NCBI GenBank assembly: GCA_027492575.1
Contig: JAPUEM010000149.1
Coordinates: 1-34,843, forward strand
Reading direction: 5' to 3'
Length of the DNA: 34,843 nt
DNA from: Propionicimonas sp.
GTDB taxonomy: Bacteria > Actinomycetota > Actinomycetes > Propionibacteriales > Propionibacteriaceae
In this document: one piece after another, positions 16,811-34,843 of the stretch
Numbering within the stretch: position 1 is the stretch's first letter
Layout of the letters: each line of letters opens with the position of its first letter
The notes under the pieces: model-generated
Databases searched by the model: none
What the model was told of the DNA's origin: nothing
The model's input: the letters and a program-made list of their open reading frames with translations, nothing else
Made by a program: the position numbers and the translations under genes

Positions 16811-16818
16811 GGAGGCCA

Positions 16819-16905
16819 AGACAGGGGAGCGCCGCAAGGGCGCTGAGAGTGCGGGAACGCAGACCCTCGAACCTGATCCGGCTAGCACCGGCGTAGGGAG
16901 TCGGG
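16819..16905 (+). ncRNA. TPP riboswitch (THI element)
   Basis: The sequence contains the conserved TPP aptamer parts in order: ACAGGGGAGC, the CTGAGAGTGC core, then GACCCTCGAACCTGATC and GGCTAGCACCGGCGTAGGGA. These form the pyrimidine- and pyrophosphate-sensing arms. It lies about 50 bp before the binding-protein gene of a thiamine-type ABC transporter, so thiamine pyrophosphate should repress the operon. The sequence after the aptamer shows a GAGG near the start codon (TTGGAGGAAAGA), which suggests control of translation initiation. Confidence 0.95.
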
Positions 16906-16952
16906 AATCTCCTCGGCAGCAGCCGAGCCCTCCGATTTCATTGGAGGAAAGA

Positions 16953-28528: not shown

Positions 28529-30046
28529 TCAGGCCCAGCGGGCCAACTCCCGCACGGTCTCGATGGTGTCGGCTTCGTCCGCCATCTTGTCCTCCCGGTA
28601 GCGGACGACCCGCGCGAACCGCAGCGCCATGCCACCCGGGTAGCGCGGTGAGCGCTGGACGCCGTCGAAGGCGATCTCGACCACCTGCTCGGGGCGGACG
28701 GTGACCACCCAGCCGTCGTCGGTTGTCATGAGCTCCTCGAACCGGGCGGTCTGCCAGGCGAGCATCTCGTCGGTCATCCCCTTGAAGGTCTTGCCGAGCA
28801 TCACGAACCCGCCGGTGGCCGGGTCGCGGGCGCCGAGGTGGATGTTGGAGAGCCGGCCGCGGCGGCGTCCGCTGCCGTGTTCCACGGCGAGCACCACCAG
28901 ATCGAGGGTGAGGACGGGCTTCACCTTGATCCAGCCGGCGCCGCGGCGTCCGGCCTCGTAGGGCAGGTCGAGGGCCTTGATCACGACGCCCTCATGGCCC
29001 TGGGCGAGGATGTGGCGCGAGAAGTCGTCCGCGGACGTGGGGTCGGCGGTGACCAGGCGTTCCACCCGCAGCCCGTCCGGCACCAGGCCGGCCAGCCGGG
29101 CGTGGCGGACGCTGGTCGGCTCGTCGATCAGGTCGTCGCCGTCCACCTCCAGCAGGTCGAAGAAGTAGGCGCTGAGCGCCAGGCCGGCCGGGTCGGCGGC
29201 GGAGGCGCTGCGGGCGGCGGTCTCTTGGAAGGCGCGCGGACGACCGTCCGCGTCGAGGGCGAGGGCTTCGCCGTCCAGGACGCAGCTGTGGCAGGGGAGC
29301 GCGGCGACGGCTGCCGCGATCTCGGGCAGCCGGACGGTGATGTCGTCCAGGCTGCGGGAATAGAGGCTCACCTGGTCGCCGCGTTTGTGGGCCTGGATGC
29401 GGATGCCGTCCAGCTTCGCCTCGACCGCCAGCGGCTCGAGGCCGAGCTTCGCGAACGCCTCGGCCACGGTCGGTGCGCTGGAGGCCAGCATGGGCAGCAC
29501 CGGGCGTCCGACTTCGAGGTGCAGACTCGTGAGCGCTGCCGGGCCCCCGGTCGCGGCGGCGCCGGCTGCTGCCGGGACCGACCCGCTGAGCATGGCCGCC
29601 CGCCGCACCAGGCCGATCGGCACCTCGAAGGCCTTCGCGATCGCCAGCAGCAGCACCCCTTCCAGGGCTCCCTGCCGGGTCTCGCCCACGATCAGCCCGC
29701 CCAGGAACTGCTGCTCGTCGGCCGTCGCGCGTCCCATCAACTCGGCCAGCCCGGACTGTCTGGCCAGTTGCGAACCCGGGCCTGACAAGCCACTCAGGTG
29801 CTCCAGGGCCCCATCGACCTCGGCGATCGCGAGGGTGGGCGAGTCGGCCGCCGGGAAGCCGGTGAGCGACCGCCAGCCGATCCCCGTCCGCCGCTGCCGC
29901 AGCCGGCCGGCGAGCAGATGCGCGAGCAACTCGACCTCACCGGGTTCCGCCGCGGCGAGCAGCTCGGCCAGCACCGCGACCTTGCCGTTGCGCGCACTGG
30001 TCGCCGCGACCTGCTGCGACGCCCGCACCACCGCCGAGAAGAGCAT
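28529..30046 (-). CDS. ligB: ATP-dependent DNA ligase (LigB type)
   Basis: A 505-residue ATP-dependent DNA ligase. The adenylated lysine is Lys211 in VEAKLDGIRIQ (motif I, KxDGxR). Other nucleotidyltransferase motifs are visible: SCVLDGEALALD (motif III), FFDLLEVDGDDLID, EGVVIKALDLPYEAGRRGAGW (motif IV and flank) and WIKVKPVLTLDLVVLAVEHG (motif V). An N-terminal DNA-binding domain (about 1-190) precedes the catalytic core, and an OB-fold follows. Length and layout match the actinobacterial LigB enzymes, which join DNA nicks and are dispensable beside NAD-dependent LigA. The ATG at 30046 was chosen over an upstream ATG because it begins MLFSAVVRASQQVAATSARN, the usual LigB start. Confidence 0.93.
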   Translation of the reverse strand: MLFSAVVRASQQVAATSARNGKVAVLAELLAAAEPGEVELLAHLLAGRLRQRRTGIGWRSLTGFPAADSPTLAIAEVDGALEHLSGLSGPGSQLARQSGLAELMGRATADEQQFLGGLIVGETRQGALEGVLLLAIAKAFEVPIGLVRRAAMLSGSVPAAAGAAATGGPAALTSLHLEVGRPVLPMLASSAPTVAEAFAKLGLEPLAVEAKLDGIRIQAHKRGDQVSLYSRSLDDITVRLPEIAAAVAALPCHSCVLDGEALALDADGRPRAFQETAARSASAADPAGLALSAYFFDLLEVDGDDLIDEPTSVRHARLAGLVPDGLRVERLVTADPTSADDFSRHILAQGHEGVVIKALDLPYEAGRRGAGWIKVKPVLTLDLVVLAVEHGSGRRRGRLSNIHLGARDPATGGFVMLGKTFKGMTDEMLAWQTARFEELMTTDDGWVVTVRPEQVVEIAFDGVQRSPRYPGGMALRFARVVRYREDKMADEADTIETVRELARWA

Positions 30047-30204
30047 GGCTCTTTCTACCCTGCGCACCCCGAGCCCCGGAAGCCGTCAGGCGGCTACTTC
30101 CTGCCATCCGGCCGGGCCGGGGGTCGCGCTGCCGCCCGTCCTCGCGGATGAAGCTGGGGGCGTCCCTGTCGCAGACTCCACCCGGATCCGCGCATGAGGG
30201 ACGA

Positions 30205-30405
30205 TCAGACTGGCTCGTCAGGATAGAAGACGTCCTCGATTGCGCACTCGAACGCGGACGCGATGCGGAAGGCCAAGGGGAGTGACGGGTCGAAGCGGCC
30301 CTTTTCGATGGAGATGATGGTCTGGCGCGAGACGCCGAGCGTGTCCCCGAGATGCTGTTGCGACCACCCGCGCGCCGCCCGCAGCTCGGAGAGGGAGTTG
30401 CGCAT
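30205..30405 (-). CDS. Small XRE-family transcriptional regulator
   Basis: A 66-residue protein consisting of one helix-turn-helix domain: LRAARGWSQQHLGDTLGVSR then QTIISIEKGRFDPSLPLAFR. It ends EDVFYPDEPV, like the YozG/Cro-like mini-regulators found with small membrane proteins. The ATG overlaps the stop of the membrane-protein gene by one base (TGATG), so both are one transcript. It probably binds the TCAAG repeats upstream of the pair. Confidence 0.9.
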   Translation of the reverse strand: MRNSLSELRAARGWSQQHLGDTLGVSRQTIISIEKGRFDPSLPLAFRIASAFECAIEDVFYPDEPV

Positions 30406-30884
30406 CAGCTGTCTGCCTTTCGCGCGACGAAGTAGCTGATCCAGAAGGCGGCGGCGCCGATTCCGAAGACTCCCATGAGAAGTAACGGCGGGGAGATGTC
30501 CACCTTCAGGAATGCGAGGAGGGCCGCGCCGAGACCGAGCGTGGCGATCAGCACGTGGTACGCGCCGGCGGCTGCCTTGTCGTACCAGCGGCTCTCCACG
30601 GAGGAGTCCGGATCGTTCGGTGCCCCCGTGAGGGTCGAGCGGTCCACGAGCAATGCCCAGGTTCCCATCGCCGTGACCGGAAGCGTCACGATCACTCCGA
30701 TCGCGTAGATGAGCCAGGGCCGGTCCTGGGTGGTTCCCATAAGGGAGATCGCCCACGCGATCCCCAGTGAGAGGATCACTCCGACCGTGAGTGAGGCTGC
30801 GATGAGAGCACGGCCACTCCCGCCGAAGCGTGAGCGACCCCACTTCGTGCGGGGCGGTTCCTGGGGGGTCTGTTGCGTCTTCAT
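30405..30884 (-). CDS. Small membrane protein paired with XRE regulator
   Basis: A 159-residue protein with four hydrophobic segments (ALIAASLTVGVILSLGIAWA; YAIGVIVTLPVTAMGTWALL; YHVLIATLGLGAALLAFL; LLMGVFGIGAAAFWISYFVA). The N-terminus is basic and Pro/Gln rich. The ATG at 30884 has AAAGG upstream; an in-frame GTG-type start ten codons earlier is possible. Membrane proteins of this size with four helices commonly sit before mini-XRE regulators (DUF2178-like architecture); I cannot assign a function. Confidence 0.8.
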   Translation of the reverse strand: MKTQQTPQEPPRTKWGRSRFGGSGRALIAASLTVGVILSLGIAWAISLMGTTQDRPWLIYAIGVIVTLPVTAMGTWALLVDRSTLTGAPNDPDSSVESRWYDKAAAGAYHVLIATLGLGAALLAFLKVDISPPLLLMGVFGIGAAAFWISYFVARKADS

Positions 30885-32122: not shown

Positions 32123-34264
32123 TCAGCCGCTCCGGGTGACCCAGCCGAGGAACGGTCCGCCGGCCGGCGGGCGCCCGTCCGCCGCATCGGCGAGGCCATC
32201 GAGAAGGATGCCCGCCTGGTCGGCCACGTCCGGGTGCAGGCCCGTCGCTGAGCGGCTGCCTGCCAGGAAGCCGGTGACTTCGTCCGCGGTGGCGAGACTG
32301 AGGTAGAAGAGCGTCTGGCGCCAGGCGAAGGCGGCGTTCTTCCGGTGCCGGAGCCGATGTCCGTTGGCCGCCTTGCCGAGGTGGGCCAGGGTCGCCGTCC
32401 AGGCCGAGTGTGCTTGGCTGGCCGGGTCGATGGCGGCGCCCCGCTTGGCAAGCACCGCGAGGTTCTGGGTGGTGAGGATCTGCGCCTGCTCGATCACCTT
32501 GCCGTTCTCGGCCGGGCTGAACCGCCAGGCTCCTGGCGTCCCGCCGCGTGACTGCACGAGAGCGTCGAACTCGGGGACGGTGGTCCGCGGCTCGCCGAGC
32601 CAGCCGGTTTCCTCGGCAGTGCCGAAGCCTCGAAGGGCCGCGTAGTCGATGTCGTAATACCGCGCGTACAGGGTGCCGCCCACCACGGTGGCGGCCTCCT
32701 GCGCCGCGCGCTGGAAGACGTGACTGAAGGTGCCCATGAAGATGTCGGCCGCCAGTTCGTAGGTGAGCGGGACGTCCTCGCCGGCCAGGGTGTACAGCCG
32801 GGCGAGCTCGCGGATCAGCGAGTTGGGCAGGACGGTGCCGGCGAAGTGCCGCAGTGCGAGGGTCGCCAGGTCGGCGGCCTGGGCGTGGGCGAGGTCCGGG
32901 GCGTCCGCCGCTCCGGTCCGTTCCAGCGCGGCGAACCAGGGGATCGCCTCGACTCTGACCTGCGACTGATGGTTGAGCAGCAGCACGCCCCGGCGGTGGG
33001 CGAAGGCGCGATAGGTGCGCTTGGCCAGCGTCCCGACGACCGGGTCGGCGTAGCGGGCGGCGACCGTCTCCGCGGTGAGCTGGGGCGCGAGTTCGGCCAG
33101 CGTCTCGGCCGAACCGACGATGCCCGCCTGCAGCAGCTCCGGCAGCGGTGCCTGGGTGGCCTGCCGCAGCGTGCGCACGATGGACGGCAGTCGCGCACCC
33201 GGAAGCTCGGCCACCAGCGCCGTCGGGTCGGCGGCCCCGCCGGTCAGCCCGAGGGCGTCCACGGCGGTGGCGACCTCGTGCGCCAGTGCGGCATGGGAGG
33301 CGAGTGACGCGCGGGCCGACTGGCCTCCCCGGAGGGCCTGAAGCTCGGGTGACCCGGGTTCGCCGCGCTTGGCCACGATGCAGCCGATCGCGTGGCGGAC
33401 CGTGCCCTGCGACGGGAGATCGGGCTGGGCGAGTCGCGTCCGGAAGCCGGTGAGCAGGGCCTGCAGATTCCCCTTCGGATCGGCGTGCCGGGAGGTCAGC
33501 CGGTGCTCGTCCGCCAGCCGGTCGTACTCCGCCAGCAGGTCGCGGGCGGCCTCGTCCCAGCCCGGTGGGAAGGTCGAGTCGATGCCGCCGGAGTCCGTGC
33601 GCGTCAGCCACCAGTGCGCCACCACCCGGTCGGTGAAGGGCGCCCACACCGTCAGCGCCTCTCGTTCGGCCTCGACCTGGCGCCGCGGACGCTTGCGCGC
33701 CAGTCGTCGTGACACCTCCGGCAGGGTCGCGACGTGGACGCCCGCGGGCTCGGGTTCGGTCGTCTCGTACGGCCAGAACCTGATCCGGCGAGCCCAGGGT
33801 TCGATCGTCCGGAGCAGGGTGTCGGCGGCTTCGGGCTGACCCGACCGCAGCAGGTGGGCGACCGTGAGCAGCGCCGTGTGCTCCGGCAGTTGGGCGCGAT
33901 ACCGTCCGGAATCGAGCCAGGTGCCGAGTTGGGCGAGCCCCGCGTCGGTGAGGAACCAGGCGAAGATTCGCGCCCGGGCCGCCGTGATGCCCAGCCGCTG
34001 GGCGAGGGTGATCTCGTCCGCTTCGAGCGGACCACCGGCTTCGGCCGCCCCGGTCGCGAAGCCGCCGCGGACGATCTGCGGGGTGAGCCACACCGGGAAC
34101 CCCTTCACCGGCGTGGGCGAGCCGACCCGCAGCCGCCCGGTGGCGAGTCCGGTGAGGACCTGCAACCACGAGTTCGCCCGCTTCTGGGCGCGTTCCTGGG
34201 CCTCCGGATCTGGGTCGGTCCCCGCCAGGGCCCGCCGCAACTGGTCCCAGGCGTAGCCGAACAT
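32123..34264 (-). CDS. Unrecognised 713-residue protein with tRNA-like leader
   Basis: A soluble, mostly helical protein with no signal peptide or membrane segment and no domain I can name. The ATG at 34264 has AGAGG 5 bp upstream; the frame is open further, but only across the tRNA-like element. Landmarks: an N-terminal region FGYAWDQLRRALAGTDPDPE, a GFPVWLTPQIVRGGFATG block, a charged middle (ARKRPRRQVEAEREALTVWA), a segment VLLLNHQSQVRVEAIPWFAA, a conserved-looking ELAADIFMGTFSHVFQRAAQ, and near the C-terminus a basic NGHRLRHRKNAAFAWRQ followed by TLFYLSLATADEV. Proteins of similar look occur in other actinobacteria as hypothetical proteins (from memory, unverified). Its mRNA should begin with the cloverleaf at 34293-34365, suggesting a link to tRNA or RNA sensing. 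That is inference only. Confidence 0.75.
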   Translation of the reverse strand: MFGYAWDQLRRALAGTDPDPEAQERAQKRANSWLQVLTGLATGRLRVGSPTPVKGFPVWLTPQIVRGGFATGAAEAGGPLEADEITLAQRLGITAARARIFAWFLTDAGLAQLGTWLDSGRYRAQLPEHTALLTVAHLLRSGQPEAADTLLRTIEPWARRIRFWPYETTEPEPAGVHVATLPEVSRRLARKRPRRQVEAEREALTVWAPFTDRVVAHWWLTRTDSGGIDSTFPPGWDEAARDLLAEYDRLADEHRLTSRHADPKGNLQALLTGFRTRLAQPDLPSQGTVRHAIGCIVAKRGEPGSPELQALRGGQSARASLASHAALAHEVATAVDALGLTGGAADPTALVAELPGARLPSIVRTLRQATQAPLPELLQAGIVGSAETLAELAPQLTAETVAARYADPVVGTLAKRTYRAFAHRRGVLLLNHQSQVRVEAIPWFAALERTGAADAPDLAHAQAADLATLALRHFAGTVLPNSLIRELARLYTLAGEDVPLTYELAADIFMGTFSHVFQRAAQEAATVVGGTLYARYYDIDYAALRGFGTAEETGWLGEPRTTVPEFDALVQSRGGTPGAWRFSPAENGKVIEQAQILTTQNLAVLAKRGAAIDPASQAHSAWTATLAHLGKAANGHRLRHRKNAAFAWRQTLFYLSLATADEVTGFLAGSRSATGLHPDVADQAGILLDGLADAADGRPPAGGPFLGWVTRSG

Positions 34265-34292
34265 GGTGCCTCTCGTCGTTGTGGGCGTATCG

Positions 34293-34365
34293 CCGACACG
34301 GCAGGTGCCGCCCCTGCTCCCTCCGGGTCCAGAGCCCGGTGCTCTCGCTGATGAGCTACGTGTCG
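34293..34365 (-). ncRNA. tRNA-like cloverleaf in the 5' leader of the 713-residue gene
   Basis: Reading 5' to 3' on the minus strand from 34365, the 73 nt divide exactly as a tRNA. Acceptor arm CGACACG pairs perfectly with CGTGTCG. Then come TA, a D-stem GCTC/GAGC with loop ATCAGCGA, a single A, an anticodon stem CCGGG/CCCGG with loop CTCTGGA, a 5-nt variable region AGGGA, a T-stem GCAGG/CCTGC with loop GGCGGCA, and a discriminator G. All 21 stem pairs are Watson-Crick. U33 is present and the nominal anticodon is CUG (Gln). But the T-loop lacks TTC, the D-loop lacks GG, and the encoded 3' end is CGA rather than CCA, so this is not a normal elongator tRNA. It ends 28 nt before the ATG of the 713-residue gene. 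Confidence 0.7.
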
Positions 34366-34373
34366 ATCCGCCC

Positions 34374-34379
34374 ACTCTA
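34374..34379 (-). promoter_or_regulatory. -10 box in front of the tRNA-like element
   Basis: TAGAGT (minus strand) fits TAnnnT and ends 8 nt before the cloverleaf, so transcription would begin at or a few nt before its first base. A TTGACT lies further upstream but about 25 bp away, too far for a standard -35. Confidence 0.45.
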
Positions 34380-34451
34380 GGCGACGAGACCCGTTGGGCC
34401 CTCTAGTCAAGGATCCTGCGGGCCGACCTCAGTCACCGCACATGTATCCGG

Positions 34452-34612
34452 ACCGCCGTTGTTGTCGCTCTCAGCCCAGTCTCCGTGCGGAAACGGCGTC
34501 GGACCGCCGCTGTTGTTGTTGTGGAGCTGAAATCGGCCGCGACAACCACCACAACGGCGGTTGCACCGGCGATCCCAGGGGAGACCCCTCTGACATCGAC
34601 AACAGCGGCGGT
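34452..34612. repeat. Four-site + + - - intergenic element B
   Basis: Four copies of ACCGCCGYTGTTGTCG-like units: forward at 34452 and 34503, reverse with 5' ends at 34561 and 34612. Distances are 51, 58 and 51 bp, identical to element A, with which it shares the motif, and to element C, with which it does not. Aligned with A, the four units match well (the first 14-16 bases of units 2 and 4 almost completely) while the spacers have diverged. It lies between the tRNA-like leader and the MerR-like gene. Confidence 0.85.
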
Positions 34613-34676
34613 CGGCGGCGTGGAGCCAACTCAGGGATCGTTGATCAGTGTTCCTCTGTCGCTTCGCTAGGTCATA

Positions 34677-34710: not shown

Positions 34711-34843
34711 ATGGGCAGTTGGACGTTGACCGAGTTGGTCGGGATCGCCGCCAGGGCATTGGCGGTCAATGGCGTGCGGGTCGGCAGTGGGCGGGTCGCC
34801 GATGTGCCGAATGAGCGGCTGGTGCGGTGGTACTCGACGATCG
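34711..34843 (+). CDS. MerR-like HTH regulator, N-terminal part (runs off right edge)
   Basis: The first 44 codons of a protein starting MGSWTLTELVGIAARALAVN and continuing to RVADVPNERLVRWYSTI, where the window ends. The PNERLVRWYSTIG-type segment corresponds to the MerR recognition pattern (R.IR.Y...GLL). From memory, actinobacterial regulators of this type often precede VIT/VWA-domain genes; that cannot be checked here. ATG 34711 is chosen because a TAATAT box 6 bp upstream makes the mRNA leaderless. An ATG at 34703 leads to a stop after eight codons. Confidence 0.7.
   Translation, partial: MGSWTLTELVGIAARALAVNGVRVGSGRVADVPNERLVRWYSTI

Follow-up and report, generated by a model that had tools for sequence, protein, structure and literature searches.

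A tRNA-shaped, apparently non-decoding RNA heading the gene of a protein of undescribed family: a candidate two-part ribonucleoprotein module of bacteria

In type III toxin-antitoxin systems of the ToxIN type, a small endoribonuclease processes an RNA made of short pseudoknot repeats, and these tandem structured repeats lie directly 5' of a protein gene. In the thrS operator of Escherichia coli, a tRNA-like structure lies in the leader and its anticodon-like loop is the recognised part. In the Y RNA YrlA, a long basal stem carries the D, T and acceptor-like arms, and TruB accepts this RNA as a substrate (PMC8394870, which also mentions the tRNA-mimic leader of thrS), and some Ro60 (Rsr)/Y RNA loci carry RNA-repair genes (PMC7790460). 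The tRNA-Other of Bacillus cereus is described as tRNA-shaped and standing outside translation (PMC3399842), and the non-proteinogenic tRNA-Gly of Staphylococcus aureus has altered positions 18-19 and a weakened fit to translation (PMC4052509). Here we describe a tRNA-shaped RNA and the gene of a 713-residue protein directly 3' of it, located near the end of a 34,843-nt stretch of Propionicimonas sp. DNA (contig JAPUEM010000149.1), which as a whole is called the window below. Ro60-Y RNA, the B. cereus pseudo-tRNA and the S. aureus cell-wall tRNA-Gly are the closest described systems, and the locus fits membership in none of them. We favour, with a probability of about 0.5, a two-part ribonucleoprotein (RNP) module in which one transcript would supply both a protein and the dedicated, non-decoding tRNA that partners it.

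As in Ro60/YrlA, the gene of a tRNA-like RNA adjoins that of a large protein; unlike YrlA, the element is a full cloverleaf with an anticodon arm, without basal stem and without U55, and unlike Ro60, the 713-aa protein has no TROVE domain. The tRNA shape without a translation role is shared with tRNA-Other, but the latter is the mark of an island and works as part of a larger regulatory RNA, and for it PMC3399842, in its accessible part, reports neither a paired protein family nor arrays nor a variable anticodon. Loss of GG18-19, in part, is a common feature with the S. aureus tRNA-Gly, whose Gly identity is fixed and for which no link to a single gene within a shared transcript is known, whereas the anticodon of the element varies freely. 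The same freedom distinguishes it from the thrS operator. Finally, one to four tandem RNAs directly 5' of the gene (one in the window) recall the type III toxin-antitoxin arrangement, from which the locus differs by its tRNA cloverleaf and its helical protein of 700-900 aa.

The components of the module in the window are the following:

34293..34365, minus strand: tRNA-like RNA, 73 nt long with the discriminator-position G (34293) counted in (cloverleaf, ARAGORN, Rfam RF00005 and our own covariance model)
34328..34334, minus strand: anticodon loop CTCTGGA (C32 U33 CUG G37 A38), the fastest-evolving part across homologues (parsimony counts, loop table)
34306..34312, minus strand: T-loop GGCGGCA, with G54, G55, C56 and G58 replacing U54, U55 and A58 (sequence; 54-58 and 18-55 covariation in 130 elements)
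34345..34352, minus strand: D-loop ATCAGCGA, with A14, U15 (covarying with A48 at 34318), A18 and G19 (sequence; tertiary-pair table)
34374..34379, minus strand: -10-like box TAGAGT, 8 nt 5' of the element (sequence)
34269..34274, minus strand: Shine-Dalgarno-like GAGAGG, 4 nt ahead of the ATG (sequence)
32123..34264, minus strand: gene encoding the all-helical 713-aa protein, whose family is undescribed (P0001; no database match; structural model)

Read from 34365 to 34293, the element is spelled CGACACG-TA-GCTC-ATCAGCGA-GAGC-A-CCGGG-CTCTGGA-CCCGG-AGGGA-GCAGG-GGCGGCA-CCTGC-CGTGTCG-G and forms a perfect cloverleaf, with stems of 7, 4, 5 and 5 pairs that are all Watson-Crick (21/21 paired). A gap of 28 nt, with the ribosome-binding-like GAGAGG inside, separates it from the ATG at 34264. 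The coordinates, stem lengths, pairing, T-loop, D-loop and gap given in the initial annotation were all borne out, on the minus strand. In a strict cloverleaf scan of both strands of the whole window, this element was the sole match (21/21 pairs), and six shuffled windows gave one match with at least 20/21 pairs. Since its folding energy alone is unremarkable (z = -1.4), it is the comparative evidence, not the folding energy, that lifts the element above chance.

Selection on the fold is seen in both stems and elbow. Among 89 distinct elements, 99.9% of pair cells are paired, a percentage inflated by the pairing required at collection, and compensatory changes on both sides, which this requirement does not inflate, occur at 11 of the 21 pairs; no shuffle equals the observed values. 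According to the initial annotation, the protein-coding transcript begins with a tRNA mimic and the element is no tRNA gene in decay; both parts of this proposal are supported. Covariation of the four stems in homologous leaders had been named as the check, and its outcome is clearly in favour. We also tabulated tertiary contacts in 130 distinct relatives of the element, where the counts are partly clade-wise and do not represent independent events. The contact 54-58 is G.G in 97 and U.A in 32, the contact 18-55 is A with G in 106 and G with U in 19, and the Levitt pair 15-48 is G-C in 111, A-U in 10 and U-A in one, the window copy. G19-C56 is retained across elements, and 108/130 have A18 G19, a partial loss of GG18-19. 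The stem and tertiary covariation therefore indicate a real L-shaped RNA whose L-shape has been kept. Distant homologues of the element retain a T-loop of the TTCRANY type, and in the large actinobacterial clade the elbow has been recoded to a version lacking U54, U55 and A58. These three nucleotides are the targets of T-loop modification enzymes. A normal elbow had been thought unable to form; with G19-C56 kept and 18-55 and 54-58 changing together, a modified elbow is likely.

The RNA and the gene travel together. Relatives of the 713-aa protein were fetched from genome collections (best 80 of 162 kept), and directly 5' of most of their genes ARAGORN calls tRNAs with differing anticodons. 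A structural scan found upstream cloverleaves at 81 of 87 loci, namely one at 62 loci, two at 17 and three at 2. Outside these 81, the element is present with a 6-nt anticodon loop in L035 and L117, L036 is a cut contig, and L116, L119 and L120 are the three absences left. Homologues are spread over three phyla, namely Actinomycetota, Planctomycetota and that of the genome of L117 (the third phylum below), nearly always with one to four cloverleaves directly 5'. As RNAs also precede planctomycete genes (L134, L135, L136, L142) and third-phylum genes (L146-L152), the pairing is either old or often co-transferred. Of 148 Streptomycetales genomes, 22 have the protein, 22 the RNA and 21 both; the sole RNA-only match (G974) is an ordinary tRNA-Trp and the sole protein-only match (G964) a gene fragment. 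With these two counted, Fisher's test of co-occurrence gives p = 3e-23, a value that serves as a guide only, related genomes not being independent. The RNA-body pattern is present in 2/396 Actinomycetota genomes, both times with the gene alongside. The distribution of the protein family is patchy: 5/396 Actinomycetota (one marginal), 22/148 Streptomycetales, 9/199 Planctomycetota and 10/189 genomes of the third phylum (two marginal matches). A search for phage or viral copies of the module found none. Full-text searches of the literature, outside which most subscription papers lie, so that an earlier report is possible, returned no description of the RNA-protein pairing.

The anticodon is the part of the RNA that changes fastest. 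When changes were counted by parsimony on the protein tree, no position exceeded 34-36, with 23-26 steps; the loop sites 20 and 59, which are free, took a similar 21 steps each, and C32 and U33 did not change at all. In all, the elements have 28 anticodons and 58 distinct anticodon loops, with loop lengths of 5-7 nt. Of 120 seven-nt loops, 29 have a pyrimidine at position 37 and 20 have G37 after A36; in ordinary tRNAs of the host, position 37 is a purine in 34/34 scorable cases and A37 follows A36 in 5/5. The loop of the window element itself, CTG with G37, is a normal one. Because of the 28 anticodons, the loops of 5-6 nt, pyrimidine 37 and G37 after A36, none of which is seen in the 34 scorable host tRNAs, the element seems, as judged from sequence, not to be built for decoding. 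Four-fold synonymous sites of the gene take 17 steps on average (5-95% range 8-27), and the anticodon, whose rate falls in their upper range, is thus unconstrained. This comparison does not demonstrate positive selection on the anticodon; diversifying selection is possible.

The 713-aa protein has homologues of about 705-920 aa; many polar residues are invariant, most of these lying in the C-terminal half. Searches against Pfam, NCBIfam, PADLOC, PHROGs and PDB sequences, made with the single protein and, for Pfam, NCBIfam and PDB, also with an alignment, gave nothing credible. Its AlphaFold model is confident (pLDDT 89.5) and nearly all-helical. Foldseek and VIA-align, run with the whole protein and with the C-terminal domain alone, found no match above background, the middle region being barely covered; as to a ring-shaped HEAT-like fold like that of Ro60, they gave no clear PDB match. 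No Pfam TROVE match was found in 43 members, and hhalign against 12 actinobacterial TROVE proteins returned a probability of 0.3%. A Ro60/TROVE identity was rejected, since profile comparison with Streptomyces TROVE proteins shows no alignment, and the Y RNA/Ro60 precedent invoked in the initial annotation fails as a membership. As to an endoribonuclease of the ToxN/AbiQ type, Pfam, NCBIfam and PADLOC gave no match, and the fold searches gave no clear relative.

In the module that we propose, a dedicated non-decoding tRNA, single or tandem, would be transcribed from a promoter at its own 5' end and would head the mRNA of the protein. In homologues, TTG-18-TANNNT precedes the first element, an A-tract lies ahead of this motif and positions -3 to -1 read CAT; transcription would thus start a few nucleotides 5' of this element. 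RNase P and RNase Z would probably cut the tRNA-like RNA out of the mRNA. The first ATG lies 2-4 nt past the acceptor stem in 74/81 loci, i.e. 1-3 nt past the would-be RNase Z cut, and in most actinobacterial members excision would yield a near-leaderless mRNA, whose new 5' end would lie 1-3 nt from the start codon. Actinobacteria translate leaderless-type mRNAs. The window organism, a Curtobacterium plasmid (L121) and the distant phyla have instead a spacer, often with a ribosome-binding site. The protein could bind the excised RNA via its invariant body, composed of the acceptor end, G30-C40/G31-C39, C32-U33, the variable loop and the recoded elbow, and the freely varying anticodon loop would stay exposed in the RNP. 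Since the distribution is accessory and patchy, a role related to stress or conflict, for example sensing attack on tRNAs, seems most likely.

An RNP module is favoured by the association spanning three phyla and by the lack of any conserved partner gene. Several observations weigh against it. A cis element would be just as compatible with the fixed location at the mRNA 5' end. The Gemmata family members L119, L116 and L120 have no adjacent RNA, and apparently the protein can work without it or with one acting in trans; where a genome has the gene but no RNA adjacent to it, candidates for one in trans were not separable from ordinary tRNAs. The region upstream of the window element fits the promoter profile of the homologues weakly (p ~0.19), and a consensus promoter scan found none there, only the -10-like TAGAGT. 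Moreover, the anticodon evolves at about the pace of synonymous sites (23-26 steps against a mean of 17), for which neutral drift suffices without any function of an exposed loop. If the RNP module is real, bacteria of several phyla own dedicated non-ribosomal tRNAs tied to one protein of unknown family, possibly of unknown fold, and a second kind of tRNA-like RNP exists besides Ro60-Y RNA. This would raise the question of why the tRNA body has been retained so long while the anticodon was released.

Tandem copies are mostly 2-16 nt apart, and such tight arrays thus resemble tRNA precursors. Four copies are present in L071 and L102, and some array copies lie 80-450 nt upstream; for own promoters of these distal copies, the fixed-offset profile gives no support. 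In L071 (2592-2902), the repeat before the last of the four tandem copies holds a copy of the start-codon region (CTATGAACGACGACGTG), and the array therefore appears to have grown through the gene start. Distal or middle copies in L111, L102 and L074 have odd or broken anticodon arms, the middle copy of L074 being decayed, which suggests that copies are born and lost within arrays. Descent of the actinobacterial N-terminal extension from a decayed tRNA-like copy was considered and rejected as weak, with 24% of loci at p below 0.05.

These features bear on the main rival of the RNP module, a cis-acting tRNA-mimic leader. Here the element would stay in the mRNA, either as an operator for its own product, as in thrS, or as a gate on the adjacent start codon. 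Its constant 5' position, 2-4 nt ahead of the ATG in most loci, and its strict co-occurrence with the gene are what such a leader predicts, but arrays of up to four copies, some of them far upstream, are not, and the element mimics no particular host tRNA, its elbow being recoded away from those of the host. In addition, its anticodon is not conserved, contrary to a mimic of the thrS type. We regard a cis leader as a serious but rather doubtful explanation.

A further possibility, a special case of the RNP module, is that the RNA baits or senses toxins that cleave tRNAs. Anticodon nucleases of phages or rivals would act on its exposed and diversified anticodon loop, and cleavage of the loop would alter the state of the protein. 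This explains the free anticodon best, given that the most variable part is the anticodon loop within an invariant frame, that different loops occur within one array and that the distribution is accessory. Evolution of anticodon loops under nuclease pressure also has a precedent in phage tRNAs (PMC10264068). However, the rate of loop change is not clearly above the neutral expectation, and we found no defence family match, no phage or viral copies and no shared defence neighbours; overall, the bait or sensor function is unlikely, if attractive. By extension, and just as speculatively, the RNP module could represent a class of bacterial RNPs in which a constant, protein-specific tRNA body carries an interchangeable anticodon loop as bait, sensor or very short guide, the arrays supplying several loops per cell.

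It is improbable that the RNA is a dedicated aminoacyl donor, charged by a host synthetase, kept off the ribosome and used by the protein as a source of the amino acid, in the manner of the Staphylococcus cell-wall tRNA-Gly. The RNA is altered in its T-loop and at positions 18-19, and the S. aureus tRNA-Gly outside protein synthesis is likewise altered at GG18-19 (PMC4052509); moreover, the C1-G72 pair hardly varies, and a few distant members encode CCA. On the other hand, no transferase domain or fold can be recognised in the protein, and its family matches no transferase family, such as the Fem-type transferases of cell-wall tRNA systems, and a variable anticodon would scramble the identity for anticodon-reading synthetases.

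ARAGORN calls the window element tRNA-Gln(CTG), and Rfam RF00005 (tRNA) matches it with 46.6 bits (E 4.7e-7), so that tRNA finders do detect it, contrary to the expectation of the initial annotation. Despite these calls, an ordinary or decaying tRNA gene lying beside the gene by chance is hardly credible, because a normal tRNA-Gln(CTG) of quite different sequence is encoded elsewhere in the host genome (L027), and because strongly constrained stems with a free anticodon accompany one gene family across phyla. The T-loop also differs, being TTCRA in 35/35 ordinary tRNAs of the host genome and GGCGGCA in the element. In our own covariance model, built from 89 element sequences, nearly all elements score 68-98 bits (84.1 for the window copy) and the ordinary host tRNAs that match score 20-59 bits; the exceptions are a degenerate copy in L127 at 55 bits and the decayed middle copy of L074 at 37.9 bits. 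A T-box or another known riboswitch leader was rejected, no curated Rfam family except tRNA matching the element; in the Rfam scan of the window, gathering scores were reached only by this tRNA and by a TPP riboswitch elsewhere.

Six elements, mostly from Actinomadura, have the anticodon TCA. For the Actinomadura elements of L054, L067, L070, L087 and L089, the ARAGORN call is tRNA-SeC, and such TCA elements probably lead to false annotation of suppressor or SeC tRNAs. Since standard tools, here ARAGORN, call them ordinary tRNAs, the elements may add misleading anticodons, including those of apparent suppressor or selenocysteine tRNAs, to tRNA catalogues.

Past the right edge of the window, where RNA-repair and VWA genes had been suggested as worth seeking, a MerR-like regulator (its first 44 codons lie in the window), a VIT-VWA gene and an RNA ligase gene are divergent from the module, the VIT-VWA gene at about 1.3 kb and the RNA ligase at about 7.7 kb. 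Genes of the kinds sought are thus there, but they are not conserved around homologues: none of the three recurs near homologues in the sample, so these neighbours are local to this genome. More generally, no conserved partner genes were found within 3 kb of 85 loci, and 20 loci covered over 20 kb showed nothing more than synteny at the level of clades. Between the element and the MerR-like gene, at 34449-34613, four CGGACCGCCG(T/C)TGTTGT-like repeats, two per orientation, are possibly operator sites. The window end at 34843 abuts a run of 100 N (contig C149 34844), probably a scaffold gap, and the contig pieces on either side are probably contiguous since their sequences overlap. The coordinates of these neighbours and of other features of the contig are the following:

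L182 (contig C149 34001-43183), 827-4101 and 7986-9056: MerR-like regulator, VIT-VWA and RNA ligase (PHA02142 OB plus RNA_ligase)
30205-30843: HTH_3 protein, downstream of the 713-aa gene
28529-30067, minus strand: ATP-dependent DNA ligase gene, downstream of the 713-aa gene
16813-16916, plus strand: TPP riboswitch (Rfam RF00059, 64.4 bits)
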